From: Cerasicoccus sp. TK19100 | Lineage (GTDB): Bacteria; Verrucomicrobiota; Verrucomicrobiia; Opitutales; Cerasicoccaceae | Length of the DNA: 64,000 nucleotides | Assembly: GCF_027257155.1 (NCBI RefSeq) | Contig: NZ_JAPWDU010000001.1 | Location: 124,001-188,000, forward strand | Direction: 5' to 3' | Shown: one piece after another, positions 15,510-45,266 of the stretch | Numbering within the stretch: position 1 is the stretch's first letter | How the letters are laid out: each line of letters opens with the position of its first letter | Position numbers and translations under genes: made by a program | The notes under the pieces: generated by a model | Databases searched by the model: none | The model's input: only the letters and a program-made list of their open reading frames with translations | What the model was told of the DNA's origin: nothing

Positions 15510-18500
15510 AACGGTTTCTGACGATTCTAGCTCTTACAATAGCTGCCACTGGCGTATCCATTGCCCAGACAGCTAACGACGAGGACTACGGCATACGCAC
15601 CACAAATGTCTTGGGGGCGCATACCCTCTCATGGTGGGGCAAGAGCGGGTATATATTCTTTCTTCAAGGAAGTTCTACGCTCGATGACTGGTTTTATGAC
15701 CAAACGATCTACACAGGTGAAGGGGCTGTCATTGATGAATTTAACTTTACCCTTGAGGCTGATCCAAATCCTGGACCCGGCATAACCAATGGCAGGATAT
15801 TTTGGCGACTCCGGCCTGTGCAGTTTGTTGGAAACGCTTATGCTTACGATTTCGATGGTGACTATGTAGACTCATATGAGGAGTTGATCGGCGGAACTGA
15901 TCCCCTGAGTATGAGCAAAAATGACGATTCCGACGTATTTCCTGACGATTGGGAAATCATACGTTATGGAACATTGGATAGCTTGCCACCCGATGCGGAC
16001 TTCGATGGAGATACCATACTTGATATTGATGAATTCACTAATTCTACCGATCCCACAGTAAAAGCAAAACTGCTTGCGCCGACATTCCCCATTACAGGAG
16101 AGGATCAAGTGGACCCGTTTGAACTTGAGATTACGAACCCCAATAGTATTGGTGTGATTCGCTACACGCTGGATGGTTCTGAGCCAACTCAAACATCTAC
16201 TGCTTACAACCCGGAAGAGAAACCAGTTCTGCCTACCGGTATAAACCGTGTTGTTGCCAAGGTCTTTGACTCCCGTCAGGAATCCAGTGACCCCACTAAC
16301 ATCAATATATACAGAGTGCGTGAACAGGGAACGCCGCCTCAGACTGTTTACTATGGAATCAAGACCATAACGCTCGGAGGACTCACCATTACTGGCCCAT
16401 TTTATTCCCACTCAAACAGCGGATTTCATTCCGGGACAGTCATGAACCTTGGAATGGGATGGGTCGTTCAGCACGGAAACTATGGCAGCTTGGATGTAGG
16501 AGATGATTTTCTAGCTGATACAGCTAGCGCTTCGAGCGCATGCTATTATGTTCGCAAAAGTTCGGGCATGCCCCCCCAGCTCCAAGGATTCGTTCTCCAC
16601 GGATACACGACTGACCTTACTAACTTTTCACCGGATGAATATATTTCTGTCGGATATGGCTGGATTAAAGCGGTAGTTCCTGCAAGCCCTCCAGGTTCTT
16701 TAGCGGTTCCGATTGAATATGAAATCGACACCAGTGCAGCTTCCACGACTATTTACTTTGGAACCAAGAATTTTGCAGGAGGATCAGACCAGTTTTATTC
16801 AACAAATCCGAATGATTTTGCGAGCAACACCCGTCTCAGGCTAGGGAAAGGGTGGACGGATGGATTTAATGAATTTACCCGTGATCTGGAATCGCCTTCA
16901 GAGCCAGTCTACTACGGTTTTCTCAGTGCTGGAGTTAGCACTCAAATACCCTATTATTCACATGACTCCAGCAGCTTTATAGCCTCCAGACGAGTTTATG
17001 CTGGAGATGGATGGATCACTAATCCTGAAGATATGGAATCCACAAAACCGGGCCATTACACTAACAACCTTGTTTTTGGCAGGAAAAATTCATTTACGCT
17101 TAGCTACTATGTTGTGGCAGATGGCAATATTGATACGCTGGATGGGCCAACGGTATCACTTGGGGCGGGATATCTGACATCTTCAATCAGCTTCAATCCC
17201 GATGCGACTGAACCAGCCGCTGATGTATGGTTTGGCGCTAAATATTTTTGGGGTAGTATTGGATACGCGAATATTTACACCTATAATCAACCTGATATTG
17301 ATTCATCGCCCCCTCAGTATCAAGGAGAAGGGTGGGTGTTTGCAAACGGGGCTAATTTTGGCGCTCAAAGCCTGAATTTCCTGTCAGAGGCTGTCGGGAA
17401 TTCTGACGATGATGAAGATGGGTTGAATTACGCGACCGAAAGATTTGTAACCAATACCGACCCCAATAGTTGGGACAGTGATGGCGATCTCATTAGTGAC
17501 TCAGTAGAGCTTGAGTTGGAGGGGTTCGATCCCAATATCTATGACGATCCTTATGCTGACATCGACGGGGACGGATTGGACAACTACACAGAATTTCTTA
17601 TCGGTGCACGGCCAGATTTGGAAGACTCCGACGGGGACGGATTCACAGACGCTCAGGAATATCGTTTTGGAACAAGTGCTTCAGACAGCAATGACAACCC
17701 CAATTCAGAAGATTACAATCCGAATGAGGTCGTTGAACTGCGGTTAACTATCGGCGATCATAGCGGTAGCCATTCAGAGAGATGGTCACTGAAAATCGTT
17801 AGGGACTCTGATGGAAAGACCATTCTCAACTATCAGGCCCCCACCTTTGGTGAAGTTGCCGCCAATAAAGCGTTCTGGATGTTCAGGACTGGAGAGATTT
17901 ATACAGTGACGGTTGAACACGTCGAATCAAACATTTCTCCGGAAGACTTTGACTACACAGCGGACATTCAAATACCCAGCACCGAAAAGAATGCGGTGCT
18001 GCTCATTGCTGACAATCAGACAGAACAAGGGATTGGAGCAGGCCAGCAGCCAACATTCAAGCTGCTTGGGGAACATAATGAGAGTGAAACAAACTACGCG
18101 GTAGGCAAGAGCGTGAAGGCGTATTTGCCGGTTGTTGAGATTGTTAAATCCGAGTCTGGCGCAGTTGGAATAGGAGATTTGGTCGTCACCGATAAGCTTA
18201 AGGTCGCCAAGCTTGAGGATTCTTTAAACCAACAGGGGGTTCTTAATCCCAATCTCGACCCTGATAGATTTTATGTCCGCGTTCCCGGACTAAAAACTGC
18301 CACTTCCGTATCAGTGTTTGTTGAAACAGAAAATCAACAAGGATTTGAAGCATACAATGATGACCCCACTGAAATTGAATTAGTTCAGAGCCCAGATCAG
18401 GAATTTTGGCTCAGCCCATCAATGGTGCTTGTTTCTGACATTATAGATGATGGGTATTACGCCACTGGTATGCCCACGGACGAGACAAAGGGAGACCGGA

Positions 18501-19255
18501 CTCATCTCATTGCGCTGGGAGGTGACGTCATTATCAGCAAAGTTATTGTAGATGACCTTGAGGCTGAGACAGAAGTAAAGGCGGATGTAGATGCCAAGCA
18601 TAGCATAACTGTGAATGTCGTTGGCCTTACGAGCCAACTGAACATGACCAACCTGCTTGAGGACTTACAGGTTGCCAAGGAACGATATGCCCAAGTTGGA
18701 ATCAGTGTAAATTTCAACGTTACAACTGCCGATATAACAACCGCTCCTGGAGTCGATGCATCCAATGGAATCGACATTCTTGAGGGCATTGCTATCGTCG
18801 GTGCCAATCTGGACAAAAAGAACATACTCAGTAATGAGTTTCTTGCCTTGGTAGATGCCTTTGGAACGCCTGAGGACAACACTGATATCCATGTGTTCGT
18901 TGTCGATCAGTTGAATGACCTATTTGAGGGAACAAATCCCAAAGGATTCGCTAGTGTCCTACGTTTTGCCGCAGACATACCAGCGGATGAATACGGTGGC
19001 ACAGAGGTGCGTCAATTGGGGTATGCAGGCAATGTCATTGTATCTAATGGGTCTAAAACCTTTTTCACGATCGCTCATGAAATTGGGCATATCCTTACAA
19101 ATCACACGCATTATGGAAATGATTACGCGCAAGGTGAGTTCGCGGACCATAATCTAATGAAGAATGGAACCGCGATAGCGAACCAGTTTACTGCAACGAA
19201 GCGACTATATGAATTGCAGCAAACAATGATTGATGAATTTCTCGGCAATCAATAA
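15506..19255 (+). CDS. Large secreted putative zinc metalloprotease with Ca-binding and tandem repeats
   Basis: This 1249-aa protein has a signal peptide (MKRFLTILALTIAATGVSIAQ). It carries two blocks of thrombospondin type-3-like Asp-rich Ca-binding motifs (about residues 115-190 and 630-740, for example DSDGDGFTDAQE) and a chitobiase C-terminal-like segment (YTLDGSEPTQTSTAY). Between the two blocks are about six degenerate 45-55-aa repeats of the form (V/I)-Y-(Y/F)-G-x-K ... G-x-G-W. Near the C-terminus is AHEIGHILTNHTH (H1191, E1192, H1195; H1200 or H1202 as possible third ligand), a zinc-protease HExxH. The protease assignment is inference from this motif. The target is unknown. Its coupling to the 270-aa exported protein is unusual. 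Confidence 0.75.
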   Translation: MKRFLTILALTIAATGVSIAQTANDEDYGIRTTNVLGAHTLSWWGKSGYIFFLQGSSTLDDWFYDQTIYTGEGAVIDEFNFTLEADPNPGPGITNGRIFWRLRPVQFVGNAYAYDFDGDYVDSYEELIGGTDPLSMSKNDDSDVFPDDWEIIRYGTLDSLPPDADFDGDTILDIDEFTNSTDPTVKAKLLAPTFPITGEDQVDPFELEITNPNSIGVIRYTLDGSEPTQTSTAYNPEEKPVLPTGINRVVAKVFDSRQESSDPTNINIYRVREQGTPPQTVYYGIKTITLGGLTITGPFYSHSNSGFHSGTVMNLGMGWVVQHGNYGSLDVGDDFLADTASASSACYYVRKSSGMPPQLQGFVLHGYTTDLTNFSPDEYISVGYGWIKAVVPASPPGSLAVPIEYEIDTSAASTTIYFGTKNFAGGSDQFYSTNPNDFASNTRLRLGKGWTDGFNEFTRDLESPSEPVYYGFLSAGVSTQIPYYSHDSSSFIASRRVYAGDGWITNPEDMESTKPGHYTNNLVFGRKNSFTLSYYVVADGNIDTLDGPTVSLGAGYLTSSISFNPDATEPAADVWFGAKYFWGSIGYANIYTYNQPDIDSSPPQYQGEGWVFANGANFGAQSLNFLSEAVGNSDDDEDGLNYATERFVTNTDPNSWDSDGDLISDSVELELEGFDPNIYDDPYADIDGDGLDNYTEFLIGARPDLEDSDGDGFTDAQEYRFGTSASDSNDNPNSEDYNPNEVVELRLTIGDHSGSHSERWSLKIVRDSDGKTILNYQAPTFGEVAANKAFWMFRTGEIYTVTVEHVESNISPEDFDYTADIQIPSTEKNAVLLIADNQTEQGIGAGQQPTFKLLGEHNESETNYAVGKSVKAYLPVVEIVKSESGAVGIGDLVVTDKLKVAKLEDSLNQQGVLNPNLDPDRFYVRVPGLKTATSVSVFVETENQQGFEAYNDDPTEIELVQSPDQEFWLSPSMVLVSDIIDDGYYATGMPTDETKGDRTHLIALGGDVIISKVIVDDLEAETEVKADVDAKHSITVNVVGLTSQLNMTNLLEDLQVAKERYAQVGISVNFNVTTADITTAPGVDASNGIDILEGIAIVGANLDKKNILSNEFLALVDAFGTPEDNTDIHVFVVDQLNDLFEGTNPKGFASVLRFAADIPADEYGGTEVRQLGYAGNVIVSNGSKTFFTIAHEIGHILTNHTHYGNDYAQGEFADHNLMKNGTAIANQFTATKRLYELQQTMIDEFLGNQ

Positions 19256-23145: not shown

Positions 23146-23652
23146 ATGGGCTCAGTGAATACGAACTTGGCGGCATTGATTTCTGGTGTGAACATTAATG
23201 ATTATGTAATGCCGATTGAGGTCACTGGGAATTGGGTTTCTTATCGATACACCGGCTCGCCGCTTACGGCTTCTAAGAAGGAAGGCCGTTACAATGAGGA
23301 TGGTGTAAACGCGTTCTATCTTGCTGATTCGCAGGAAACAGCGGCACACGAAGTCCGGCATAACTTCAATGAAAAGGATTTATATCGGGTTAAGCCTGGA
23401 ACTATTTATGTGTTTGATGCCTATAAGTTCGCGACCGACAATTGCCTAAATCATCCCCTTACTGGATCGCCGGAAGATGGGAGCTATAAGTTCTGTCAAG
23501 ACATTGCGTATTGCTTAACAATGGATCACGGATTGTCTGGTGTCCGGTATCCTAGTCGTCAGATGGCACTCAAAAGTAAATCAGGGCAGTGTATTGTTTT
23601 ACTACCACAGGAGCACCAACTCGTGAATGGCGAGCTTCGAATATTCCAGTAG
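23146..23652 (+). CDS. RES-domain protein, possible NAD-degrading toxin
   Basis: This 168-aa protein reads SYRYTGSPLTASKKEGRYNE, then GVNAFYLADSQETAAHEVRH and, near the end, GVRYPSRQM. These match the three conserved positions that give RES domains their name: R34, E69 and S137. Characterised RES toxins degrade NAD+ or ADP-ribosylate a host enzyme and are paired with Xre/MbcA-type antitoxins. No such antitoxin gene is adjacent; the divergent gene is unrelated by eye. It may be an orphan toxin, or the partner may be elsewhere on the element. It converges on the 182-aa gene with a 5-nt gap. Confidence 0.7.
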   Translation: MGSVNTNLAALISGVNINDYVMPIEVTGNWVSYRYTGSPLTASKKEGRYNEDGVNAFYLADSQETAAHEVRHNFNEKDLYRVKPGTIYVFDAYKFATDNCLNHPLTGSPEDGSYKFCQDIAYCLTMDHGLSGVRYPSRQMALKSKSGQCIVLLPQEHQLVNGELRIFQ

Positions 23653-26839: not shown

Positions 26840-27037
26840 ATCCTCAACCACGCTTGTATTCAGCTCACAGGTGCCGAGGATGCGGGTATCGCCAACTCGA
26901 ATATCGAAGACCTGACGGCCATGTCGCTCTACGCCCTCTAACGCAAGGGCCAGAAATGGACTTTCGGTCCAGCATTCTATTTCGAGATTGTGCAGTTGGA
27001 GCAGCTTGAGTTTATATGAGTCTTTACGTCTGGCCAT
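26831..27037 (-). CDS. Small hypothetical protein coupled to the XRE regulator
   Basis: This 68-aa protein reads MARRKDSYKLKLLQLHNLEI and then CWTESPFLALALEGVERHGR, with a short strand-rich end (RQVFDIRVGDTRILGT). Its start lies 14 nt inside the XRE gene upstream, so it is translated from the same mRNA. No family is recognised. Pairing with an XRE protein is reminiscent of toxin-antitoxin layouts, but no toxin motif is visible. Its stop lies in the stem of the parB-like terminator. Confidence 0.55.
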   Translation of the reverse strand: MARRKDSYKLKLLQLHNLEIECWTESPFLALALEGVERHGRQVFDIRVGDTRILGTCELNTSVVEDKK

Positions 27038-27470
27038 GCTCGCCTTCCTCAGATTCCTTTGGAGTTAAAGCCTTCACCATATCCATTAACAGCCCGAGGA
27101 CAGCAGCTTGAACATGCTCTGGGCTTGCTCGGAATAAGCGTAATACCTGCATCTCTTCTTTCGATTTTGCATCTGGCGTATCTTTCTCCTGATAGATTTT
27201 TTTGCTGCTGGTCGGAAGAGATATGTCAATGCCTCCAATTCCCTCAAAAAAATACATCGGGTGAACATCCAAGGCTTGGGCAAACAAGACTAATCGGCTC
27301 GCACTCAGGCGATTGCGTCCGTTCTCGTATTTCTGAACTTGTTGGAAGGTGATGTCGGCACTGTTGGCAAGTTGCTCCTGTGTCAGCCCCTTGTAGTTGC
27401 GTAACTGACGTAAACGTCCCCCTACATGAACATCAATGGGGTTTGGCCCTTGTTTTACTTTTGACATCAT
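27024..27470 (-). CDS. XRE-family transcriptional regulator
   Basis: An ATG at 27470 follows an AAGGAA Shine-Dalgarno, giving 148 aa; an upstream in-frame ATG (27491) is less likely. The HTH spans NYKGLTQEQLANSADITFQQ plus VQKYENGRNRLSAS. The segment ALDVHPMYFFEGIG after it is characteristic of the XRE group common in Alphaproteobacteria. The C-terminus (about 60 residues) is helical and acidic. It would repress its own operon or element functions. It overlaps the 68-aa gene. The resemblance to alphaproteobacterial regulators fits a foreign origin. Confidence 0.88.
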   Translation of the reverse strand: MMSKVKQGPNPIDVHVGGRLRQLRNYKGLTQEQLANSADITFQQVQKYENGRNRLSASRLVLFAQALDVHPMYFFEGIGGIDISLPTSSKKIYQEKDTPDAKSKEEMQVLRLFRASPEHVQAAVLGLLMDMVKALTPKESEEGEHGQT

Positions 27471-27545
27471 TACTTTCCTTGTCGCTGTCATTTTTTAGTG
27501 GATATATGTTCTTTCATCGTCTGACGGCAGCTATGCCCACGTGAT

Positions 27546-29477: not shown

Positions 29478-30194
29478 TCACAAGTGAAAATTGCGCCTCT
29501 TGTCGATTTTTAATTTCATCCACATTGCCTCCATATACTTCAATTCCTCCTGCCCATGAAGCTGCTGATAGATTTCTGTTGTTTTGGAATCCGCATGGCC
29601 CATGAGGCGCTGTAGTAGGGATTGCGGCGTCTTGAATTCATCGGAATGAATCATCGCAAAGGTATGGCGTATTGCGTGGGGATGGGCGTGCGGACCGGAT
29701 ATGTCTGCCTCGGTCATAATCTCTTTGATCCAGCGATACGCAGTTTTACGATCAACTGCCCAGAGCCTTTCATGGGTGGCGTTGGCATTGCCCAGGTCAA
29801 AGAACTTTTGCAAGGATTGTAAGTATGAGGTATGGAGACACACCCAACGGTAGCGATAGACCGGTGGTTTTGGGGGTGATTTTTTCTTCTTAGTCCACGG
29901 CCAGACCCATTGAAAGAATTGCACGAGTTGAAAGAGCCAGGAACGCTTTTTGCGTCGCCTCTGCTTCAAGGTGCGAATGATGACGAAACCCGCCTCCAGG
30001 TCAAAACTGTGGGTTGTCAGGGCTAATGCTTCTGAAATGCGGCAACCCGTTAGAACGAGCATCAGAGCGAACAAGCGTCGCTCTGGCGGCTGCCGCAATG
30101 CGGCGTCGATAAAACGCAAGAGCTCGCTGTGTGTGAGATACTTGCGCCATCCGTGGCGATCCACCACGGACATCGCATTGGGGGCATAGTTCAT
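29478..30194 (-). CDS. Catalytic-domain-only tyrosine recombinase (FimB/XerC-like size)
   Basis: This 238-aa protein has a complete catalytic set: R52 (TGCRISEAL), H173-x-x-R176 (HAIRHTF), H200 (MGHADSKTTE) and nucleophile Y209 (IYQQ). It lacks the N-terminal core-binding domain of XerC/D, as do FimB/FimE-type DNA invertases. Residues about 77-111 are an odd insertion, very basic and then Trp/Phe-rich (KRSWLFQLVQFFQWVWPW), then KKKKSPPKPP. No clear Shine-Dalgarno precedes the ATG. The gene is bracketed exactly by 29-bp inverted repeats, which are the likely recombination sites. It may mobilise itself or flip its own segment. Confidence 0.9.
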   Translation of the reverse strand: MNYAPNAMSVVDRHGWRKYLTHSELLRFIDAALRQPPERRLFALMLVLTGCRISEALALTTHSFDLEAGFVIIRTLKQRRRKKRSWLFQLVQFFQWVWPWTKKKKSPPKPPVYRYRWVCLHTSYLQSLQKFFDLGNANATHERLWAVDRKTAYRWIKEIMTEADISGPHAHPHAIRHTFAMIHSDEFKTPQSLLQRLMGHADSKTTEIYQQLHGQEELKYMEAMWMKLKIDKRRNFHL

Positions 30195-31997: not shown

Positions 31998-33893
31998 CTA
32001 CGCCTTGTAGATATTGATCGCTTCACGTCCAGACCCTTTATCTTTGAGTTGAAATCTGACACGTTTTCTATTTAACGATGCAATGGTATAGTCATGCTTT
32101 ATACTTCTGGATTGAAAGTATATTCGAGATTCTGTTTCTTCTTGCTCTATAAAGCCAAATGACCCTCGCTCAAATTCAATTATGCCAAAGTGTTCTGCAT
32201 CGCTTCTTTCTTTCTTCTTAGCGTGACTTTTATCGCGATCATTAATGGGGTTACTGCCTTTTTTGGTTGTCGGTTGGCGCTCCAAATAATCTTTAACCAC
32301 AAGGGCCTGGTGAAAACCATTTTGAGGAGACCGAGGAAGGTCTGTTGTTAACGTTTTAACAAATCTCTTTCTTGGTATTAAATCAAATGAGTATGCAATG
32401 CTCATGTCCAACGATAAAATAGGTTGAATCGTGTTTTTTGCTTTCGTTCTCATGCGGCTTTTGTCATGAAAAACACCTTGCATGATTAACCGATCAAATG
32501 CCTTTACTCGTTCTCTCGCTATGCTTAGGTAAATTGTGTGTGGCAAAGAATTATTTTTTCTTTCTTTTTTGTTATTCTTGTGACGAATGTCGTTGTTCCT
32601 GTCAATAAGGCGATCTATTAGATAATTGGTATATTCAACGTCTTTTTCGCTTAACGGACCGGTTGATAGTAACTGATTGTTAGTAAACTCGTTGACCGCA
32701 AACTCCACATGGGATTTTAGCACGCAATTTCGAGAAGGATCATATCCTCTTTTTACGAAATCCCAGAAGCGTCTAGGAATTCCATTCGCACAATAAGCGG
32801 CAAGTCTGAAAGTTTCCTCTGATTCAAAGAGCTCTTTTTGAACGCTATTGAAGTCCCCCTTCATATCGAGGAAATGCTTTGCCCGCCGCAGGGTCATATC
32901 CTCGAAAAATTTTATGTACGTCTCAAGGTCGGTTTCATCCCACTGAATAAATTCCATTGCGCAATCTTGGCCAGGTTCAAAGCTGAATTCATCACGCTCG
33001 CGCGTTGGGTAGTATGTCTGCCCTCTTGGGTAAACAGTGCCAATAAAAAATACACACCATTGACGATCTGGAAGAAGTGTTGATGCGCCACGGATTGTTT
33101 TAAAAAGCCTAAAGACTTCAACTTGAGCTCTCACGCTTGCTTCAGAGCATTCATCAATTAGTAGAAGTGAGTGATTTAAATCCAGGATAATTTGGATTTG
33201 CTTCAGAAATTCTACTAGGAATTTTTCTGAATTTTGGTGAGCGAGTTTTGATCCAACATAATTTTTGGAGTTTTTAAAGTCTTCTCCAGAAAATTCTTCT
33301 GACTCTAAGTTCAAAGAGACATTTCCGTCAAATGTTGGCGACTTGGCCTTTACGCTGGATTTAAATGAAGCACCGGACTTTCTGTTTCTAAATTGGCTTG
33401 AAGCTGAGTCAAATGAAGACAAGTCGAATTCAAGGCTCTGGCGTAAGCCTTCCGCAAGTTCATGGATTTCATCTAAAGTCTGATCAACTTGGGAAGATGC
33501 CGGGATATTAAATAGAGATTTCAATTTGGTCAGTGCTTTGATCAGCAATGAATCTTCTTCGCGTATTTGTTTTTTATGCTTTTTAACTGTCTCGATGCAT
33601 CGCTCTACGATATGCGTATATAGATGCATTCGAAATTGAGTTGAATCCTTTTTGGCGTGTTCACTTATCTGAGCCAAAGATACATAGACCGGTAAAATTT
33701 TATGCTCATTGAAATTGAGCATATAATAATTATCGATCATCTTTAGGATGTGTGTTTTCCCGGTTCCACGCTTTCCCTCAATAAGTATATTCTGACTTTG
33801 ATGAAAATGATCGATGTCCATTCCAACGTGTGTATGTGGATCAAAGCCCCCGGCTTGGGCATCATGATTGAAGAATTGCGGATTAAGAGCCAT
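31998..33893 (-). CDS. P-loop ATPase with C-terminal cold-shock-like domain
   Basis: This 631-aa protein has Walker A GKRGTGKT (residues 40-47) and Walker B LLLIDE (243-248), with sensor-like elements later (for example VFFIGTVYPRG). This is the AAA/STAND-like architecture of many defence and stress ATPases. Residues 568-631 look like a cold-shock (OB) domain: HFGIIEFERGSFGFIEQ has the RNP1-like GFGFI position, and RIYFQSRSI the RNP2-like position. That would bind single-stranded RNA or DNA. A very charged linker (DRDKSHAKKKERSDAEHF) joins the two. The fusion suggests nucleic-acid sensing coupled to ATPase switching; the effector is not obvious. It is AT-rich and isolated between two RHH copies. 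Confidence 0.8.
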   Translation of the reverse strand: MALNPQFFNHDAQAGGFDPHTHVGMDIDHFHQSQNILIEGKRGTGKTHILKMIDNYYMLNFNEHKILPVYVSLAQISEHAKKDSTQFRMHLYTHIVERCIETVKKHKKQIREEDSLLIKALTKLKSLFNIPASSQVDQTLDEIHELAEGLRQSLEFDLSSFDSASSQFRNRKSGASFKSSVKAKSPTFDGNVSLNLESEEFSGEDFKNSKNYVGSKLAHQNSEKFLVEFLKQIQIILDLNHSLLLIDECSEASVRAQVEVFRLFKTIRGASTLLPDRQWCVFFIGTVYPRGQTYYPTRERDEFSFEPGQDCAMEFIQWDETDLETYIKFFEDMTLRRAKHFLDMKGDFNSVQKELFESEETFRLAAYCANGIPRRFWDFVKRGYDPSRNCVLKSHVEFAVNEFTNNQLLSTGPLSEKDVEYTNYLIDRLIDRNNDIRHKNNKKERKNNSLPHTIYLSIARERVKAFDRLIMQGVFHDKSRMRTKAKNTIQPILSLDMSIAYSFDLIPRKRFVKTLTTDLPRSPQNGFHQALVVKDYLERQPTTKKGSNPINDRDKSHAKKKERSDAEHFGIIEFERGSFGFIEQEETESRIYFQSRSIKHDYTIASLNRKRVRFQLKDKGSGREAINIYKA

Positions 33894-34433: not shown

Positions 34434-34628
34434 CTATTCGTTGGTCAGGTTTTCCAGGGCCGTCGCAATGAAATTGGAGCGATTGCGGTTTTGTGCTGCA
34501 GCGAGCTTGTCCACCTTCTCAATCAGGTCTATGGGCAAGCTGATGGAAATTTGTGTTTTACCGGGGGCGCGTTTGGTCTTGGAGGGTGTGGCTCTTTTGG
34601 CCTTTTTCGCGGTTTTCTTTTTAGCCAT
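34434..34628 (-). CDS. Ribbon-helix-helix (CopG/MetJ-like) DNA-binding protein
   Basis: This 64-aa protein has a Lys-rich N-terminus (MAKKKTAKKAKRATPSKTKR) followed by an RHH fold, QISISLPIDLIEKVDKLAAA. The strand is ISISLP, and the two helices run through QNRNRSNFIATALENL. RHH proteins of this size are antitoxins or plasmid repressors. The presence of a dead copy at 31.7 kb in the same orientation suggests that the intervening ATPase gene arrived by duplication or recombination at this gene. Confidence 0.8.
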   Translation of the reverse strand: MAKKKTAKKAKRATPSKTKRAPGKTQISISLPIDLIEKVDKLAAAQNRNRSNFIATALENLTNE

Positions 34629-34791
34629 AATGAGAAATCAATATCGCCATCAGGTCGGAGAGCAAGCGGTTTCAGCAAGGCAAATTATACGCCTACCACT
34701 GCTGCGCTTAAGATCGGCAATGCTGGCCAGCTTTTTCAATTTACAGGATTAGAGCTATGCCGTATTATCGATTAAATAGAAAGTGATTTTT

Positions 34792-34995
34792 ATGAATTGG
34801 TTATATGAACACAAAGAATGGGTTTTCTCAGGAATTGGCGGAAGTCTGATTTTCTTTATCCTAGGTCTGATTTTCTACAAGCAGCATACTTCATCGTTAT
34901 CCCAAAAAATAAAGTCCGGCAAAAATTCTACCAACATACAGATTGGTGGAGATGCGACAATTTCCCGTCCCGACAAGCATGAACGGAAAAAGTAG
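34792..34995 (+). CDS. Small membrane protein with GxNxTxxQxxGD motif
   Basis: The ATG at 34792 gives 67 aa: a short N-terminus, one transmembrane helix (GGSLIFFILGLIFYK, about residues 15-30) and a cytoplasmic tail with KSGKNSTNIQIGGDATI (residues 41-57). The tail motif recurs at the N-terminus of the 1265-aa protein, whose start overlaps this gene by 17 nt. The shared motif suggests the two proteins touch or co-assemble at the membrane. No known family is recognised. I read this gene as the anchor of a three-gene system. Confidence 0.7.
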   Translation: MNWLYEHKEWVFSGIGGSLIFFILGLIFYKQHTSSLSQKIKSGKNSTNIQIGGDATISRPDKHERKK

Positions 34996-37900
34996 AATCA
35001 TCCAAAAAGCTAAGGCAGGGGATAATGCCACAACTGTCCAGGTGGCAGGTGATTACAATGTTGGCACCGAGTTTATTGATAGCCACATACGATCCGAGCT
35101 TAAATCGATTATTAATGCCCGATTTTTTTCGGAATACGATGGGACTGCGAAGGTAAGGACTCTTGGAAAGAGAATTTGCAACGGTGATTTAGCGCACGGT
35201 AGTGGTTCGGTCCGATGTTTGGCTTTGGCGTGGTGCTCAAGAATTCTCTACATCTCGGATGTTGAGCTAGCTAAAGAATTTTTAGATTCTGCTAAGGAAG
35301 CTGGTTCGTGCCTTGAACTGCAAATGGCAGAGGCTTTCCTGTTGGTCCAGGACGATCAAAAGCCACAAGCTCTTAAATTACTAAGTAAGTTGGATACGCC
35401 CGCAGCGCGGACAGCTGCGCTTATGATCGTTGCACAAAAAGATAGCGCTCGGAATGCAATCAATTGGGCAAGTGAAGCAGGAATTGGATCAGGAGAATTA
35501 GATAGCGAAGGTAGGTTTTTTCTTCTTCAACTACTATTGCGCGAGCAGGAATGGGATAGCGCTTTTAGTCATTTGGATAACCTGGTGCAGCAAGATTATG
35601 TAGAAGCCCCAATTCTGCATCATATGACTGCGATCACGCGTCTATTGGGCACGGTTCCGGTGGAATTAAGATATATTGTTTTAGATCAAATTCCACTGAA
35701 TTCCTCTCAAGTTCCTCTTGCCGATAATGATGATGCAATCCAAGCTCGCAGAGAAGCCCGTAAGGAATTCATTAAGGCAAAGGAGGTAGCGCTAGCATAC
35801 GATTGTTCTGAGACTGCTCGCAGGGAGGAGCAGTATGCGTTATGGCTCGAATTGCTAGATCGCGAAACAAAGCTGGAAGGCTTAAAGCGGCTAGATAGGG
35901 GAATACGAAGTTCAGCATATACGCTTCACCTTGTGCCTCTCGCATTGGATTATGGCATAGACTTGAATTTAGATGATATAGACCGCAAGATTTCGCAGCA
36001 AGTTGCCTTACGAGGTGGACCGTCAATGGAAACCAGTATGGCTCGCATTTACGTTGGATTGAGACAAACGACTCCAAAGAAAGCACATGAGTTTTTAGAT
36101 GAGCATTTCAACGAGTTGAAAGAATACTTAAATCCTCTTTGGCTTCAGTCTCTCCAAGTCGAAATGCTGGCAAGGTCAGGAATGCCCAAGGAGGCAGAAA
36201 CGAAGTTAAGAAGTTTAGCCTCGGATGGAATTCAAGAAACTGAGGTGCAACGACTCAGAAAAATCATTTCTGAATCAGGAGATGCCGATCCAATTGACTC
36301 TATTAGAGAGAAATACAATCAAACTGGATCATTGCCTGCTTTGCAGGAACTGGTAGAGGAATTGTGCAATAGGGGAGATTGGGGTGAGCTACCAAAATTT
36401 GCAGAAACACTGTATGTAAAAACTCGCAATTTGTATCATGCAGAAATTTTTGTGAAATCCCTGAGCCAGAACCAAACGTATAAAGGTATCATTGATTTTC
36501 TGAGCGACAAAGAAGACTTCGTTGGACAGTCTCAGGCTTTACAGATCAACCGCGCATGGGCGCTATTTTATGAAGGTGAGTTCGTTTTGGCGAAGGAAGC
36601 ACTCAGCAGCATGGAATGTGGGTTAGGTGACCCCAATTATCGAGGACTTTCAATTAATTTGAGCATTTTCACTGGTGAATGGGAATCCTTGCTATCCATA
36701 GTGGACCATGAAAGGAATAATTCTGGGGATCGAAGCGCTCGAGAATTGCTACAGATTGCTCAACTTGCTGTTCATGTTAATGCTCCTGAATCACATGTCC
36801 GAGATTTAGTTCATTCAGCTGTTCAAAAGGCTGATGGAGATCCTTCGATATATGCAAGTGCGTATTTTCTAACAAGTCGGGCAGGTTGGGATGAAAATAA
36901 TGAGACTTCAGATTGGATGAGACGGGCTGTAGAGCTTTCTGATGAGAATGGCCCGATTAAGCAAGCAACTTTGAAAGATGTTTTGGATATGCGCCCTGGC
37001 TGGGAAACGAGAGTGTCAGCGGTATCAGATCACCTCAAGAGCGGCGAAATGCCCATGTTTCTGGCTGGTGACATGCTTAATCGCAGCCTATTAGGTATGA
37101 TGTTATTGCCCGCTCTGCTGAATATGGACCAGGTGGACCCAAGGCGTAGGGTTTTAATACCAGCATTTAGCGGAAATAGAAACTTACCCCCATTGAGCTT
37201 AGGAGGGAAACTAATCTGCCTGGATGCAACCGCTATAATAACATTGGGTTATCTTGATTTTCTGGGCCAATTTCTAGATTCAGTGGATCAAATCCTTATT
37301 CCTCATGCAACTCTCTCTTGGTTATTCGAAGAGAAGCAGAAGGTGGAGTTTCATCAGCCTGCACGTGTTCGGGATGCCCATAAATTACGCGACTTAGTTT
37401 CTAGAGGTAAATTAGAAAAATTTAATCCCAGCACTAAGCCAGAAAGCGACTTAGCCGATCAGGTCGGCGACGAATTGGCTTCATTTATCGCAGAAGCCCA
37501 ATCTGGGCATGAGTCTGATGACAGGCAGCATCTTGTTGTAAAGCCGGGGCCAGTCCATCAAATTGGTTCTTTGCGTGAGGAAGAAGTCGACTTGAGCGAT
37601 TATTCTCAAGTTCTATGTAGTTGTTTAAGTTTGGTTGAGAAGCTCAATGACAAAGCGCAGTTAACCAAAACGGAATTTGAGAAAGCAAAAACATATTTGA
37701 GTATGCAGGAAATGCCTTGGCCTAACCAGCCAGCAATAAATGATGGCGCAGTAATCTATTTAGATGATTTAGCTATCAATTACCTTATGCATCTTGGTTT
37801 TTTGGATAAGTTACATAAGGCCGGTCTCCAAGCAATAGTTTCACCGGACGAGTATAATGAATCAAATGCGTTAATAGGGCATGAGGGGGTATCGAATCAA

Positions 37901-38776
37901 ATAATTTCTATAATTGAGAAGCTAAGATCGCTTTTATCCTCAGGTATTCGAAGCGGAAAAATTATAACCGGTAAATCTCGATCACCGAATAGTGAGTTGT
38001 TAAATTCTGTCCCTGACCACCCATCGGTAGATGTTATCGCTCTTGCTCAGAAATGCGACATCGTGATTTCTGATGATAGGTTTTATAATAAGCATCAGAG
38101 CATGAGAGACGGCCAGAAACCAATCTGCACAACTTTGGATGTTTTAAGCGCTTTAACGTTGGCAGATCGTCTTGATCCCAATGTCGCTTTGGATAGTAAG
38201 ATAAAATTGTTGAGGTCGGGCTACGCCTTTATCGCTCTTTCTGAAGACGAATTAGCGCAGCAATTGGAGTCTTGCTCGATCAGGGAAGGAAGGGTTGTTG
38301 AATCGATTGAGCTCAAAGCGATTAGGGAGAGCCTTTTGTGTTTGAGAATGGGTGGCTATCTCAAGGTTCCCGAAGAGTCACATTGGCTAATAAATAATTT
38401 CTGTGTATTTGTTAATGTCTTAAAGCGGCAGTGGCTTGGAAATCCTGACGAGAGCATATCGATTGCCCGATCCGATTGGTTGTTCGCACAGTTGGATGCG
38501 AGGGGATGGGCTGGTCACTTTAAGGATCATAATGGTCCGTATTATTTGAGAGAAGGAGGCCTGGGCTACATCTTAATGCTGATGCATGCTCCACATGATG
38601 CTTCCCCGGAAGCAAAGCTGGCCTATCAGAACTGGATTACTGATAGAATATTGGTCCCATATAAGGAGCAATTTCCAGATTCATACGATTGGATTGTTAA
38701 ACATGAAAAAGAGCTCTTTATTAATTTGCCCATGGACGATAATTTAGAGGGGATGTCGGTTGAAAGCGAATCATAA
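34979..38776 (+). CDS. 1265-aa helical-repeat protein with two PIN-like nuclease domains
   Basis: The ATG at 34979 gives 1265 aa. The N-terminus (residues 12-28, KAGDNATTVQVAGDYNV) repeats the motif of the small membrane protein. Residues about 40-730 are helical TPR-like repeats. From about residue 745, KLICLDATAIITLGYLDFL starts a first PIN-like domain. From about 924, VIYLDDLAINYLMHLGFLDK begins a second, with VDVIALAQKCDIVISDDRFY near 1020-1036. PIN domains are metal-dependent RNases. It is tightly coupled to the genes on either side (17-nt overlaps). The architecture fits a conflict/defence protein in which helical repeats sense and PIN domains cleave RNA; this is inference. Confidence 0.75.
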   Translation: MNGKSRIIQKAKAGDNATTVQVAGDYNVGTEFIDSHIRSELKSIINARFFSEYDGTAKVRTLGKRICNGDLAHGSGSVRCLALAWCSRILYISDVELAKEFLDSAKEAGSCLELQMAEAFLLVQDDQKPQALKLLSKLDTPAARTAALMIVAQKDSARNAINWASEAGIGSGELDSEGRFFLLQLLLREQEWDSAFSHLDNLVQQDYVEAPILHHMTAITRLLGTVPVELRYIVLDQIPLNSSQVPLADNDDAIQARREARKEFIKAKEVALAYDCSETARREEQYALWLELLDRETKLEGLKRLDRGIRSSAYTLHLVPLALDYGIDLNLDDIDRKISQQVALRGGPSMETSMARIYVGLRQTTPKKAHEFLDEHFNELKEYLNPLWLQSLQVEMLARSGMPKEAETKLRSLASDGIQETEVQRLRKIISESGDADPIDSIREKYNQTGSLPALQELVEELCNRGDWGELPKFAETLYVKTRNLYHAEIFVKSLSQNQTYKGIIDFLSDKEDFVGQSQALQINRAWALFYEGEFVLAKEALSSMECGLGDPNYRGLSINLSIFTGEWESLLSIVDHERNNSGDRSARELLQIAQLAVHVNAPESHVRDLVHSAVQKADGDPSIYASAYFLTSRAGWDENNETSDWMRRAVELSDENGPIKQATLKDVLDMRPGWETRVSAVSDHLKSGEMPMFLAGDMLNRSLLGMMLLPALLNMDQVDPRRRVLIPAFSGNRNLPPLSLGGKLICLDATAIITLGYLDFLGQFLDSVDQILIPHATLSWLFEEKQKVEFHQPARVRDAHKLRDLVSRGKLEKFNPSTKPESDLADQVGDELASFIAEAQSGHESDDRQHLVVKPGPVHQIGSLREEEVDLSDYSQVLCSCLSLVEKLNDKAQLTKTEFEKAKTYLSMQEMPWPNQPAINDGAVIYLDDLAINYLMHLGFLDKLHKAGLQAIVSPDEYNESNALIGHEGVSNQIISIIEKLRSLLSSGIRSGKIITGKSRSPNSELLNSVPDHPSVDVIALAQKCDIVISDDRFYNKHQSMRDGQKPICTTLDVLSALTLADRLDPNVALDSKIKLLRSGYAFIALSEDELAQQLESCSIREGRVVESIELKAIRESLLCLRMGGYLKVPEESHWLINNFCVFVNVLKRQWLGNPDESISIARSDWLFAQLDARGWAGHFKDHNGPYYLREGGLGYILMLMHAPHDASPEAKLAYQNWITDRILVPYKEQFPDSYDWIVKHEKELFINLPMDDNLEGMSVESES

Positions 38777-40706
38777 AAAAATCCTTCTCGCCCAGTGTTT
38801 GGCAAATTTGCCAGAGATGCTGAGAGACAGTCTGTTAAGTGACGTTGATATTGTAAGCAAGTATGATTTAGATACTAAATTTCAAGTCACATTAGGAGGA
38901 TCAGACACTTCATTTGAGAGTGAAGTTTTTTATAAGGCAATACGTGAAACGGCTAACGGTTCAGGAAATGCACAAATTGAGGATTCGAATGGCAGGTTTT
39001 GGAACGTGCAAGTTGAGCACCTAGAGGGTGGGAAACACATCTTTTCACTCTCTAATGCTCAAAATCGACTTAGACTCCCAGATTTCTCATTTTTCTCCGA
39101 AAGCAAAGCAATGCGAGTGGAAGCCTTGGACTCCATATCCAAAGACCTGTATCTACCTGCCAACTCGGTTGAGTATTGGAAGGAACTCGCAGTTGAAAGA
39201 TCACTAGAAGTCAAAGAGATTGATGGATTTCATAAAGAAATTGCTGATTCGGTAATTCGCGTTGCACAAAACATTAAACGAATACTTGGCTCAGAGGAAA
39301 TAGCATCATCCTCCTTGGTCCCTTTGTCTCGCAGATACTATCAGAGGTTGGTAGGGGAATACGACGGGAGCAGCACAATTGAGGAATACGCCCGCTGTAG
39401 GGGAATTGAAGTTTTCAGAGAGTATCTCAAGTGGTCTAGAGAGAAAGGATTCGGATATTGTCTTCACATGCTAGTGCATCCCGCCTTTGTAAAGCATATT
39501 GAATTCGACGACCTCGAAACATTAGACTTCGAAGCCACTTACATCTATCTAGAAGAACACGGTAGCCCATTTGAAAAAATTGTAGGCATTGAACTCGGAA
39601 TGAGAATTATTCAGCAGAGGCCAGACTTGGAGCCTAAGTTGTTAAAGCTTATAGATGCTATATGCGATCAAAGCTCGCTGAATACATTTTTCATGTTTTC
39701 TTCAATATTTGTGCTGGTGGATGCCGAAATATCTAAAAACAAAATATTTGAAAAGGAGCCTCCGTTTTATAGACGCTTAGCATCACTCGCTCACACGGGA
39801 GTAATTTTCCGTGAATTAATGAAAATAGACCTAGGAGATGGCTTTGCTGTCTGGGCTAGGAAAACAGGAGCTGGGCAGTATTTAATGCAAACATTTGCAG
39901 ACATGCGCTCTGAGCCACGTTGGCATCCAGATTTCATATCAACAACGAACCTCAGATCCTATTTACTGGTAAGAATACTTAATTCTCTGCCAGAGGAAAT
40001 TTTAGAATCAAAGACGGGAGCAATATACGAAAAAACTTTGGGTCATGGAGCAGGAAGCGTTATGAACACTCTAGACTTGGGATTATTCTTGCATTTAGGT
40101 CCGCTAGATGGAGCAGATTCAAGCGCTATTGAGCTACCGAAGGAGTTTTCTGATGCAATAGAAAATCAATTGAAGGAGGAGTCTCGTGATGGACCTAAGC
40201 CCATCACATTCACTGCATTAGTAAATTCAGCAAGAATTTACGGTCTCAAGCCAGAACATGCGGAAATGGCAGCGAAAATTCTCAGGGAAGGAAAATATCG
40301 CCTGTCAAAAATTGAAGACCGTTCTCATTTAATTACTGTTTTAAATGGATTAGCTAGTGTTGCAGCGGTCACCAGATGCAAGGAATTAGCAGACGAGCTA
40401 CGTATTTTAGATAGAAAATATAGACGCGACCAACAGTTCCAACTGAGCGTTAATGAATCTATGCTGCTCTGCCTGGCATCATCTTCAAGTAGATCTGAGT
40501 TAATTGATTGGTGCGACTTTGTTGGCCAATGGATAACCGAACTGTCTTTTTTTGAGCTTTCAGGTGATGATGCTAAATTACTGTATGTGAACTTAAGACT
40601 ATTGCTACATTCAGTTCCGGAGCTCTGGCTACACTGCTCAGAAGCTGAAGCAGCTATACGAGCATGTATGGAGGAGCCGATGAACATACCATTGAATTCC
40701 GTATGA
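38760..40706 (+). CDS. 648-aa protein of unknown function, third gene of the PIN operon
   Basis: This gene starts with TTG at 38760 behind a GAGGGG Shine-Dalgarno and overlaps the 1265-aa gene by 17 nt. The 648 residues are mostly helical with no motif I recognise. An N-terminal strand-rich part (about 1-110, for example DTKFQVTLGGSDTSFESEVF) is followed by a long alpha-helical repeat-like body. It is expressed with the PIN protein and likely works with it. It could be a regulator or the target-recognition subunit. It lacks transmembrane segments. A short hairpin (GAGCAT/ATGCTC) overlaps its stop codon. Confidence 0.7.
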   Translation: MKANHKKILLAQCLANLPEMLRDSLLSDVDIVSKYDLDTKFQVTLGGSDTSFESEVFYKAIRETANGSGNAQIEDSNGRFWNVQVEHLEGGKHIFSLSNAQNRLRLPDFSFFSESKAMRVEALDSISKDLYLPANSVEYWKELAVERSLEVKEIDGFHKEIADSVIRVAQNIKRILGSEEIASSSLVPLSRRYYQRLVGEYDGSSTIEEYARCRGIEVFREYLKWSREKGFGYCLHMLVHPAFVKHIEFDDLETLDFEATYIYLEEHGSPFEKIVGIELGMRIIQQRPDLEPKLLKLIDAICDQSSLNTFFMFSSIFVLVDAEISKNKIFEKEPPFYRRLASLAHTGVIFRELMKIDLGDGFAVWARKTGAGQYLMQTFADMRSEPRWHPDFISTTNLRSYLLVRILNSLPEEILESKTGAIYEKTLGHGAGSVMNTLDLGLFLHLGPLDGADSSAIELPKEFSDAIENQLKEESRDGPKPITFTALVNSARIYGLKPEHAEMAAKILREGKYRLSKIEDRSHLITVLNGLASVAAVTRCKELADELRILDRKYRRDQQFQLSVNESMLLCLASSSSRSELIDWCDFVGQWITELSFFELSGDDAKLLYVNLRLLLHSVPELWLHCSEAEAAIRACMEEPMNIPLNSV

Positions 40707-40890
40707 GCATTTGAGATTTGAGATGCTCCGCTTCAATACTCACAATGTTCTCCCATCAATATCCTCACCCATTTTGAAAAATCAGTCAGATTCAGTAATT
40801 AATTGCGTTCAAATTCGCTGAAAATTGAAGTCTTCCATCTTGTGGGGCGGTTGTAAGTTGTTGATAGTAAGAATTTTATATTTAATTGTC

Positions 40891-40919
40891 GGCGGGTTCG
40901 AATCCCTCCCCATCCGCCA
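40891..40919 (+). other. tRNA 3'-end fragment, probable attachment site
   Basis: The 29 nt contain a T-loop TTCGAAT with 5-bp stem arms GCGGG/CCCTC (one mismatch), a 3' acceptor strand CCCATCC and GCCA. This matches the end of a tRNA with a G discriminator such as Ser or Asn. The 5' two-thirds of a tRNA, including the complementary acceptor strand, are not found upstream. Integrases commonly target tRNA 3' ends and leave such fragments at the far end of an island. Confidence 0.65.
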
Positions 40920-41808: not shown

Positions 41809-42124
41809 TCATTATCGGCAATCCTGATACGGATTCAGCAGCGAAATCGTGTGGCATAGAAGTGCCAATTTTGACGGTTTTTTGGCTTAGATTTTTTGTT
41901 AGATAACAATGTTAAAAAGGGCAATTGGGTGGACTTGCGGGCCGCTAGGGAAGTCAGCGAGCAGTAATCCCGATACCGCCTTCCGATATTAAACCTGTAT
42001 TGCTAGTTTGGCCGTTAGCCAGCAGGCGGGTGGTAAGATGTGAAATGAGCTGAGCAACTTTGCGTTTTAGCCAGATAAAGGCAACGGCGGACTCCATTCA
42101 CATACTAAATACCGGGACTGGTGG

Positions 42125-42174
42125 CTATGCTATGCTATGCTATGCTATGCTATGCTATGCTATGCTATGCTATG
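42125..42174 (+). repeat. Ten tandem copies of CTATG
   Basis: Fifty bp consist of ten perfect CTATG units. Such tracts change length by slippage and can act as phase-variation switches when in a promoter or coding frame. Here it lies about 330 bp upstream of the pectate-lyase-like gene and in no convincing gene. Confidence 0.9.
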
Positions 42175-42506
42175 CAGCGCAGCCATTGGCTGCCGATTTC
42201 CTCAATCTCAGTTTTACTCTTGGTTAGTGCAACTAAAGAGGGGAGCATTGAGCCAGCGAAATTCTGTTTGATTACTAGAAGTATGATGGCCTCCAGCCTT
42301 TCAAATCAATTACTCCTTTCGTGTTCAATTTATTGAGAATAAAGCATCTGTAGATTTAGCTTTATTTAGTTGGAGGGGTGAACTTCCTGTGCTGAATAAA
42401 TTAAATAATAAAACTTTACAGAGGTTTATTCCTGGGTCACAATTCTATTCCCTACTTCGAGCGTGCGTGCTAGCGCTTGCCTACTCAACCCCTAAGATGC
42501 TTACCG

Positions 42507-45266
42507 ATGTTCACTACCCCATGGGCGTGTTTGCGCGCCACTTCGTTGTCTTTGCTATCTATCATTGCTCTCAGCCTTTCGTTGATTAATCAACGAAGCG
42601 AAGGAGCTACGAACTCAGAAAATGTGCCGTTCTCTGATTTTCCATCTCGTTTGCAGGACAATGCGTCTTTGCATCCATGGGAGAAGGGATTTCTTGATGT
42701 AACAAAGGCTCCCTACGGCGCGGCGGGTGATGGAATTACGGATGATACTGTGGCAATTCAAAGTGCGATTGACGATGCCTACTCCAGTAACTTGGCTGTC
42801 CATTTCCCTGCTGGCACATATTTGGTTAGTGACCAACTGCAATGTAAGCAAATTCCGCCTCAAGGATTAAATGGGAACTTAAAATTTTGCCACATATTGA
42901 TAGGCGAAAAAGGTGCAATGCCCACCATCAAGCTGGCAGACGATTCCAATGTGCAGGATAATCTTTTATTTCATTTTCAGTATTACGACAAATATACTCA
43001 GTCACCAGATGCCTCGCGTCAGTACGGCTCCACGCTTCGCGGATTCAATATTGATATGGGGGAGAACCCAACCGTTGACGCCATCAGCATGGACGGCGCT
43101 CAGGCCTGCGTCATCGAAGATGTCGTTATCTCCGGGAATTTTAAAGTAGGTGTCCACGGAATACCCGGGTCGGGCGGCAGTATCAACGGCCTTAAAGTCA
43201 TTGGCGGTGAGATAGGAATACTATGCGATGAATACCGGCCGAATCCAGTGCTAGTCGGTATCGAGCTGGAGGGGCAGAATTCATGTGGCGTTAAAATTAC
43301 CAACTCACGCGGTCCTGTGTGCCTGGTCGGATTCAACATTACAAGCCAAGTAAACCCCAGTCCGTCCTACCGTGCTGTTTATGCAAAAACCTACGACAAC
43401 GACTCTGCCAATCCACGTGGTGACTTGGTGCTCATCGATGGTCAAATTACCGTGAACGGTGCTGCAGGTTTAGCGGTTTATAACTACCGGCAGAATGTCA
43501 CTATGCGTAACGTCTATATTAAGGCGGAAAGGATGGTCGTGGACTACCTTGGAACGCTAGCGGGCGATGCATCCAAATTCTTTCACATACCAAGTTTTGT
43601 TTATGCGACTGCCGTGACTGAAGCAACCGTGGTCCGCGATTCAGTCGATTGGCATGCAGCGGAACCGCAAGACGATTACAGCGAACATGAACCTATTGTG
43701 GAAAAGGAACCTCCAGCAGACCTGATTGAGCGTCACCTGCCAGGCACCTTCCCATCATGGGAGGACAATAATCTGTATGATGTGGTTGACCGATGGTGGA
43801 TCCACGTTACGCCGGATGACCCGAGCGATGATGACGCTGTCGGCATCCAGGAGGCCATTGATTTTGTCGCTGGTAGTAACTGGTTGAAAACGGTTTTTCT
43901 GCCACGGGGGCATTACCACCTGAAGAGCGGCATTACGTTGAAGGCTGGTGTCAATTTAATCGGGGCTGCTAAGAACCTTTCGGTATTACATGTGGACGAA
44001 TCATTGCCTCAATCGACACCCATAACGGTTGTCGAAACCGAAGATACAGAGGGGACCATTCGTATCGGGGACTTAGCCATTCATTCCGCAATGGGGGATG
44101 AGGCATCGAACTTTAAGAATGTCACGCTGTTGAAAGTTCAGACCAGCAATACGATTCTCAAAGACTTCATCATCACGAAGTATAACACAGAACCGACTAA
44201 TCAGGTAGTCGTAGGCGAACCACAAGTTCGGTTTGCGGGGCATGCGGGTGGTCGCGTGTATAATCTCTGTCAGTATCGTTTTGTCGTCACGAGCTCACAG
44301 GCGGGTTACGAGGATTTCCGTTTACTCGATATTGAGGGGACGTATTTTCCGCTCTATTTCTATTCTCCAAGTATCGAGCATTGTCGGCATGGCCCGCCAG
44401 CAATTGAGATCAACGGTTCGGAAAATATACACATTGTCGGGATGAAAACCGAGGGTAACAAGCTCTTGAGCCTCAACAATACGATGAATTTTTCGATGTT
44501 TGGTTTATCCGGAAATATAGTTCCGCATTCTGAAGAGGGTTCAGATATTATTGATATTTCCGGGAACTCAGACCGCATTTGGCTCTCTACGCTGGATCGG
44601 AAACATAGTATTGCGGAAAACGATAATTACTGGATCACGAGCCCTACTGAAGCAGTCACGGATACTTTGCCCGTTGCGCTTTATCAAAAAGGGGATGTTT
44701 CAAGAATGGCTCCGGGCATGACCGAGAATTTTGATGATGCCCAGTCGTTGTTCAGCAATGTTAATGGCGTTAACTTCTTCTACAATCTGGGAGAGTTGTG
44801 CTATGCGGGGACTGCTGGGTGGACGGTGACGTGTCCCTCCGATCGTCTACAGGGAGTTAATTACGAAGTCGGCGTCGATCTGTGCATGGATCAGATTCCT
44901 GGAGCTTCTTGGGCGACGCCAACACTGATCTTTAAGTCCGTGGACAATGATTCTGACTATACTGCGCGGATTAAAAGTAACGGTAACTTGCTCATTGAAG
45001 GGCCGGGCGGCTTAAAGATTGAAGGCAATGTCTCTTCTCTCCTCAGCGACCCGCTTAATCCGGTAACTGCCTGGAATAATTTGGCTGTGCAGGTTCACAG
45101 TGGCAACGCCGAGTTCCTCATTAATGGCGTCAAAGCATCGAGCGTGAATGGAAGCTTAATGATCGCCAATGATCCGGGCTTGGAGATTGCCGGCGATTTT
45201 GGTTTGATCGGTCGGAATGGCATGGCCAGCCGCTTTGATAACTTTTTTTACTACGGGCTTGAATAG
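42507..45266 (+). CDS. Secreted pectate-lyase-fold (right-handed beta-helix) protein, two repeats
   Basis: The ATG at 42507 gives about 919 aa with a signal peptide ([20 protein letters not shown]). Two pectate-lyase-3-type starts are visible. The first is [20 protein letters not shown] and [10 protein letters not shown]; the second, about 380 residues on, is [19 protein letters not shown] and [12 protein letters not shown]. Each begins a beta-helix domain. The C-terminus is a concanavalin-like domain ([20 protein letters not shown]). Such proteins cleave or bind polysaccharides outside the cell. The substrate is unknown. It begins the carbohydrate locus that includes GH130, sulfatase and transporter genes. 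Confidence 0.8.

Follow-up and report, generated by a model that had tools for sequence, protein, structure and literature searches.

A probable split TPR/GreA/B-C/double-PIN defence operon with a candidate membrane effector in a tRNA-Ser island of Cerasicoccus sp. TK19100

We analysed a stretch of 64,000 nucleotides (nt), hereafter the window, from Cerasicoccus sp. TK19100 (Verrucomicrobiota; contig NZ_JAPWDU010000001.1, positions 124,001 to 188,000, assembly GCF_027257155.1). Near its middle lies an operon of three overlapping genes that encode a 67-residue protein with a single transmembrane (TM) helix, a large protein of 1265 residues and a partner of 648 residues. We suspected that the operon is a defence system in which a sensor/nuclease core is split over two genes and linked to a separate membrane protein. 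The genes, and the domains and motifs predicted within them, are as follows.

34792..34995, + strand: gene of the 67-residue single-TM protein, ATG start.
34912..34962, + strand: motif copy 1, KSGKNSTNIQIGGDATI, residues 41-57 of the TM protein.
34979..38776, + strand: gene of the 1265-residue putative sensor/nuclease protein, ATG start, with N-terminal motif, helical solenoid, helix-turn-helix (HTH), PIN1 and PIN2.
35012..35062, + strand: motif copy 2, KAGDNATTVQVAGDYNV, residues 12-28 of the large protein, in its N-terminal effector slot.
35072..36970, + strand: helical-repeat body, TPR/PPR-like (tetratricopeptide/pentatricopeptide repeat), residues about 32-664; supported by designed PPR and alpha-solenoid chains in a profile comparison and by Pfam TPR in relatives.
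36971..37180, + strand: HTH upstream of the double PIN, residues 665-734; PF24407, E 1.9e-21.
37211..37678, + strand: PIN domain 1, about residues 745-900; PF20698 stretch and 7-member alignment, boundaries approximate.
37757..38098, + strand: PIN domain 2, residues 927-1040; PF20698, E 1.9e-15, 57.8 bits against a cut-off of 27.8.
38760..40706, + strand: gene of the 648-residue partner, TTG start, with N-terminal permuted GreAB-C domain.
38904..39053, + strand: permuted GreAB-C domain, partner residues 49-98; PF24388, E 4.7e-7, 29.8 bits against a cut-off of 27.

The three open reading frames (34792-34995, 34979-38776 and 38760-40706) form one unit, with an overlap of 17 nt at each of the two junctions (34979/34995 and 38760/38776). 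The gene of the large protein could also start at an in-frame TTG, 12 codons upstream of the ATG at 34979. The TTG start of the partner gene at 38760 is preceded directly by a strong Shine-Dalgarno sequence, AGAGGGG. GC content is 41-46% in the operon versus 50-59% in the flanking host sequence. The first-pass annotation, made from the sequence by a model, had already drawn this AT-rich unit with both overlaps, a motif common to the TM protein and the N-terminus of the large protein, and a TPR-like body followed by two PIN-like domains; all of these held up.

By profile matches, the large protein consists of a helical solenoid followed by an HTH and a pair of PIN domains. A three-sequence profile of its N-terminal half matches designed PPR and alpha-solenoid structures (best E 3.7e-6); TPR models match the relatives, and the TPR signal is weak in the 1265-residue protein itself. 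The Pfam model PF20698 gives two stretches in this protein, and two PIN regions are present in all seven relatives aligned. D749 of PIN1 is conserved in all seven; the HQP(S) signature of PIN1 and the DDR signature of PIN2 are kept almost throughout, the DR part of the latter throughout. An acidic residue at 785 of PIN1 is likewise conserved, and D929, E958, D1027 and D1032/D1033 of PIN2 are conserved in the closest relatives, the PIN2 acids outside DDR in that group only. Since D749, HQP(S) and DDR are kept and the other acidic residues of PIN2 are confined to the closest group, catalysis is likely rather than certain; family and residues together point to cleavage of RNA as the likely activity. 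Pfam gives neither a nucleoside triphosphatase (NTPase) domain of the NACHT or NB-ARC type nor a peptidase match in the large protein. About 30 residues that carry the motif precede the region homologous to relatives, with no Pfam domain in them.

The partner, which the first-pass annotation had left as unrecognised, matches the permuted GreAB-C model PF24388 near its N-terminus. Partners encoded on plasmids of Agrobacterium and Methylophaga also match PF24388. Profile comparison of the partner with an adjacent 684-residue gene product in genome G279 and with the C-terminus of a protein in genome G230 gave no decision either way.

Relatives show that the two large genes belong together. A plasmid of Agrobacterium fabrum carries both genes in the same order and overlapping (large protein 32.6% identity over 97%, partner 27.3% over 90%). 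Likewise, a plasmid of Methylophaga thalassica carries both in the same order and overlapping (29.5% over 95% and 25.5% over 98%, respectively); the overlaps in the plasmid pairs are of a few nucleotides. Genome G148, which belongs to the same order, encodes a single protein of 2099 residues that holds both PF24407 and PF24388. Furthermore, the C-terminus of a 2126-residue protein on an Allocoleopsis plasmid is collinear with the partner, a modest match with E 0.0065 in one comparison. Because of the fusion and the conserved adjacency, it is very likely that the large protein and the partner function jointly.

The homology between the large protein and its plasmid relatives starts at residue 29-32, right after the motif, and the N-terminal slot before it is filled differently from one relative to the next. 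The Agrobacterium protein and the G230 protein carry a serine-hydrolase domain matching the profile of the retron type VIII effector (E 2.5e-26 and E 1.4e-16, respectively). The Methylophaga protein has two TM helices fused directly, in cis. The Allocoleopsis and G148 proteins have a nuclease-like domain with restriction-endonuclease-like D...QCK features, read from the sequence and with no Pfam match. In the Cerasicoccus operon the slot holds the motif alone, and a membrane segment with the same motif is encoded by the separate upstream gene. These comparisons show that the N-termini of relatives carry predicted effector domains that are exchangeable, a feature that the first-pass annotation had missed.

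The operon is the last cargo of a 44.6-kb integrated island, before a 3' fragment of tRNA-Ser(UGA). The island spans window positions -3661 to 40919 (contig C1:120339-164919). Its left end, 3.6 kb outside the window, is the intact tRNA-Ser(UGA) at contig position 120339, with a tyrosine recombinase directly after it, and the fragment forms the other end:

40884..40919, + strand: 3' fragment of tRNA-Ser(UGA), the right attachment site and island end.

The island also encodes a TrwC relaxase (1704-4553, - strand), recombinases (9333-10955 and 29478-30194, both - strand) and a ParB-like protein. Among 289 genomes of the phylum, PF24407 occurs in 4 and PF24388 in 2, a sparse distribution that fits horizontal movement. 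Scans of genome-contig and viral-contig collections with the operon proteins or their alignments gave no relatives, and phage records gave no match to the large protein. The Agrobacterium copy adjoins an HSDR_N nuclease and SIR2/AAA genes, and the Methylophaga copy adjoins a WYL regulator and a condensin-type, Wadjet-like cluster with MksE/SMC. The defence setting and the joint occurrence of homologues, as the first-pass annotation would have them, are thus found in both plasmid pairs. GreA/B-C and PIN domains also serve housekeeping transcription and RNA processing, and the large protein and its partner could be devoted to RNA quality control or stress regulation, for instance the rescue of stalled polymerase, with no part in phage defence. 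We regard this as unlikely: few genomes of the phylum carry the two Pfam families, the genes sit on a tRNA island here and next to defence genes on plasmids, and the N-terminal effectors vary. From the domains, the relatives and the setting, the operon is very probably a split TPR/GreA/B-C/double-PIN defence system.

The 67-residue protein has one TM helix, with a mean hydropathy of 2.14 over residues 10-28. After the helix come basic residues, so by the positive-inside rule its motif-bearing C-terminal tail would be cytoplasmic, and we propose the protein as the membrane effector of the system. Residues 4-60 of a 70-residue form of it match the N-terminal TM part of the PADLOC candidate PDC-M43A (E 1.2e-6). 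This match covers only positions 1-56 of the 203 in the profile; the remaining 147 are absent from the TM protein, and the other operon proteins match no PDC-M43 component. A protein of 199 residues in another genome of the phylum (L028:5789-6388) has the same TM module at its N-terminus, WLAENKEWLFSGIG..., fused to a tRNA_anti-like OB domain, which suggests that the module is reused in other proteins. A single-TM protein in genome G055 was rejected as a counterpart: its TM module is that of PDC-M43A, yet an OB-like domain is fused to it and no double-PIN gene lies next to it.

Local alignment of the two motif copies scores 62, whereas shuffled sequences score 21.8 on average (standard deviation 4.2, maximum 47), and none of 3000 shuffles reaches 62. 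The copies share no more than 5 of their 17 third codon positions, so they are not a recent duplication of DNA and the likeness lies at the level of protein. When both motifs were combined into a degenerate DNA pattern, it matched three sites in the 289 genomes, two of which are the motif copies themselves, 100 nt apart; as the pattern was built from these very sites, the result speaks for rarity and is no independent discovery. A second, looser pattern, run over 189 genomes, matched copy 1 alone. Searches of plasmids by tblastn with the TM protein, the motif and two hand-made consensus probes yielded nothing useful. The one motif match in Azospirillum (E 8) was discarded for want of supporting neighbours, and another, in genome G302, proved spurious when read through. 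The pairing is real at this locus and, in the genomes, plasmids and viral contigs searched, is seen at this locus only.

The copies lie close together, in overlapping genes, and the pair is seen at one locus only, which would agree with a motif that is a functionless leftover of an old partial gene duplication and with a TM protein that has nothing to do with the system. We consider such an origin quite improbable. The two reading frames are not the same, and 12 of 17 third positions have diverged although the peptide is kept, as expected under selection on the peptide, and the motif occupies the position that holds the effector in relatives.

We propose the following order of events. With its GreA/B-C domain, the partner would bring the complex to RNA polymerase, as proposed for a one-protein system (PMC8195603), and there monitor transcription, for example by a polymerase that a phage has hijacked or stalled. 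Once the system is activated, RNA would be cut by the PIN domains and the large protein would cluster. The clustered N-terminal motifs would act as a template for the matching motif on the cytoplasmic tail of the TM protein, much as in RHIM, PP or BASS3 amyloids. The TM helices would then oligomerise and damage the membrane, leading to abortive infection. This last step is suggested by the layout, in which the N-terminus of a receptor, the C-terminus of an effector and overlapping genes recall BASS/PP signalosomes, and by the logic of the effector slot. Membrane pairing and RNase activity are both steps that we infer from sequence.

The amyloid step is suggested by the likeness of the motif to the RHIM core, which the first-pass annotation had not noticed. 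The TM copy reads IQIG and the large-protein copy VQVA, and the RHIM core is G-phi-Q-phi-G (PMC7885112). An archaeal BASS3-like peptide, which stains with Congo red, ends in INVAGDATLP, as compared with IQIGGDATI and VQVAGDYNV in the two copies. The motif fits RHIM only loosely, and the first glycine of the core is absent from both copies.

Several results count against our interpretation. The RHIM core is incomplete: NIQIG agrees at 4 and TVQVA at 3 of 5 positions, and the operon proteins match no RHIM-type Pfam profile at E up to 1. The likeness to published BASS3 peptides is weak; the scores of the TM copy are reached by 86 and 144 of 10000 shuffles and those of the large-protein copy by 818 and 932 of 10000. 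For one control peptide that is not an amyloid the scores are about as good (649 and 557 of 10000). Nor was a second pair of TM-motif and motif-sensor proteins found in the genomes, plasmids and viral contigs searched. The first acidic residue of PIN2 is lost in some wider relatives. AlphaFold models made without an alignment were too poor to judge a PIN fold in the PIN region (mean pLDDT, the predicted local distance difference test, 36.4) or a GreA/B-C fold at the N-terminus of the partner (55.9). Foldseek and VIA-align gave this weak partner model unspecific, beta-rich matches (Z < 5), with GreA/B-C and FKBP not among the matches listed. This outcome is not evidence against a GreA/B-C fold.

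A simpler arrangement is conceivable, in which the PIN nucleases and docking to polymerase suffice, the TM protein serves only as a membrane anchor for the complex and the shared motif mediates ordinary docking, with no amyloid formed. The two PIN regions in all seven aligned relatives and the weak resemblance of the motif to tested amyloid peptides agree with it, as does the proposal that the single-TM partners of the EACC1 system, described below, are membrane sensors and not pores (PMC7159879). Against it, relatives place lethal-type effectors or two TM helices at the position of the motif, which points to a role as effector, and signalling amyloids typically have a phi-Q-phi-G/A-G-D core flanked by N, S and T, as the motif does. 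We take the anchor arrangement for a serious possibility, yet a minority one. That the TM protein acts through the motif as the membrane effector of the system seems to us slightly better than an even bet. That the link is an amyloid is a tentative idea, and concerns the manner and not the substance of the link. To the combined statement, a split defence system with a TM effector, we assign a probability of about 0.5. These strengths are set by the weak likeness of the motif to known peptides and by the control peptide that scores similarly.

Outside the three genes, the following features lie upstream of the operon.

34740..34768, + strand: candidate sigma-70-like promoter, TTTACA-17-TATTAT, 10/12 matches.
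34434..34628, - strand: 64-residue ribbon-helix-helix protein, Pfam RHH_1, 29.7 bits against a cut-off of 20.5.
31998-33893, - strand: ORC-CDC6-like P-loop ATPase, 631 residues, with a C-terminal cold-shock domain below the Pfam cut-off.

In a promoter scan, sigma-70-like sites were no commoner than in shuffled sequence. The ribbon-helix-helix gene is divergent from the operon and is a candidate regulator; its membership of the operon is likewise only a candidate. The operon lies between the cold-shock-fused ATPase and the tRNA fragment (40884-40919), just as first described, and the fragment turned out to be the attachment site of the island. The ATPase weakly matches the DS41 anti-phage protein (E 1.3e-4) and is possibly a separate defence gene. 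We weighed it as a further member of the system and left it out, since none of the relatives examined has a recognised gene of this kind beside it.

Other observations concern the surroundings. Directly upstream of the Methylophaga double-PIN pair lies a four-gene, MksE-containing Wadjet-like cluster (L007:5890-11476), with the WYL regulator divergent. The Cerasicoccus island encodes a RES-domain protein (23146-23652; Pfam RES, E 1.2e-13), possibly the toxin of a RES-Xre pair, and an HTH protein (27024-27491, - strand). Chitobiase C-terminal-like repeats occur in a 1249-residue protein (15506-19255), which also weakly matches the gliding lipoprotein CglD; its gene is preceded by an open reading frame of 270 residues (14697-15509) with an overlap of 4 nt. 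Beyond the island, a perfect GCTAT repeat of 10.4 copies (42124-42175) stands just upstream of a pectate-lyase-like gene (42477-45266), and changes in its length could switch expression of that gene.

The nearest published counterpart is a TPR-GreA/B-C-PIN conflict system in one protein, predicted by Kaur et al. 2021. It is mostly a standalone gene with few conserved neighbours, its N-terminus swaps among 13 effector domains or EAD10, and action of GreA/B-C and PIN on hijacked RNA polymerase was proposed for it (PMC8195603). With the Pfam models PF24407, PF20698 and PF24388, this publication speaks against the claim of an undescribed system, so that the first-pass annotation is supported in its operon, domains, defence setting and motif and not supported on novelty and on the unrecognised partner. 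The operon shares with the Kaur system helical repeats, a GreA/B-C-type domain, the same PIN family PF20698 and a variable N-terminal effector position. It differs in having two PIN domains and an HTH, with GreA/B-C permuted and in a separate gene. Instead of an N-terminal effector domain or EAD10 it has a TM protein, the proposed effector, joined in trans through a short motif. The Kaur system is a single polypeptide, whereas the operon uses two genes and a TM gene; fusion is seen only in other relatives.

BASS/BELL-NLR pairs are adjacent or overlapping genes in which the N-terminus of the receptor carries a motif that recurs at the C-terminal end of a small protein acting on membranes (Dyrka 2020, reviewed in PMC7889193). 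The operon resembles them in its adjacent, overlapping genes, in the placement of the motif at receptor N-terminus and effector C-terminus, and in the RHIM-like phi-Q-phi core. However, its putative receptor is a solenoid-double-PIN protein with no NACHT/NB-ARC NTPase and its putative effector a 67-residue single-TM protein. The match to RHIM and BASS3 is incomplete, and amyloid is only a candidate in the operon. RHIM of RIPK1/RIPK3 and fungal PP motifs serve regulated membrane-lytic death, and IQIG/VQVA come near G-phi-Q-phi-G, but the operon lacks the first core glycine, a profile match, a kinase and a HeLo domain. In the EACC1 two-gene system a small single-TM protein is encoded 5' of a large variable protein, and the 3' gene often encodes a caspase-type peptidase (Kaur et al. 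2020, PMC7159879). The operon likewise has a small single-TM gene 5' of a large one, but no Pfam peptidase match; the likeness of the TM proteins is one of gene layout.

The 2021 review PMC7889193 asks whether bacterial signalling amyloids act in pathways that do not depend on NLRs. The locus is a small, concrete candidate for this question, and two short peptides and a 67-residue protein can be tested directly. In bacteria, a necroptosis-like trigger of membrane damage has until now been put forward solely for sensors of another class. A RHIM-like amyloid outside NLRs, by which a polymerase-docked solenoid-double-PIN sensor would template a 67-residue single-TM killer and the motif would replace a fused effector, is a speculative reading that we hold to be doubtful. 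Furthermore, one sensor core can swap predicted effectors, from a hydrolase to a nuclease-like domain, a fused TM segment and a TM protein in trans, and the predicted polymerase-watching GreA/B-C-PIN class gains a split form suited to biochemical reconstitution. In the literature searched, with most subscription journals outside its scope, we found no split double-PIN/permuted GreAB-C form, and no non-NLR sensor linked through a RHIM-like motif to a membrane effector in trans. Pfam already has models for the parts, and the one-protein system has been predicted in print; what is new is the split form together with its proposed membrane effector in trans.

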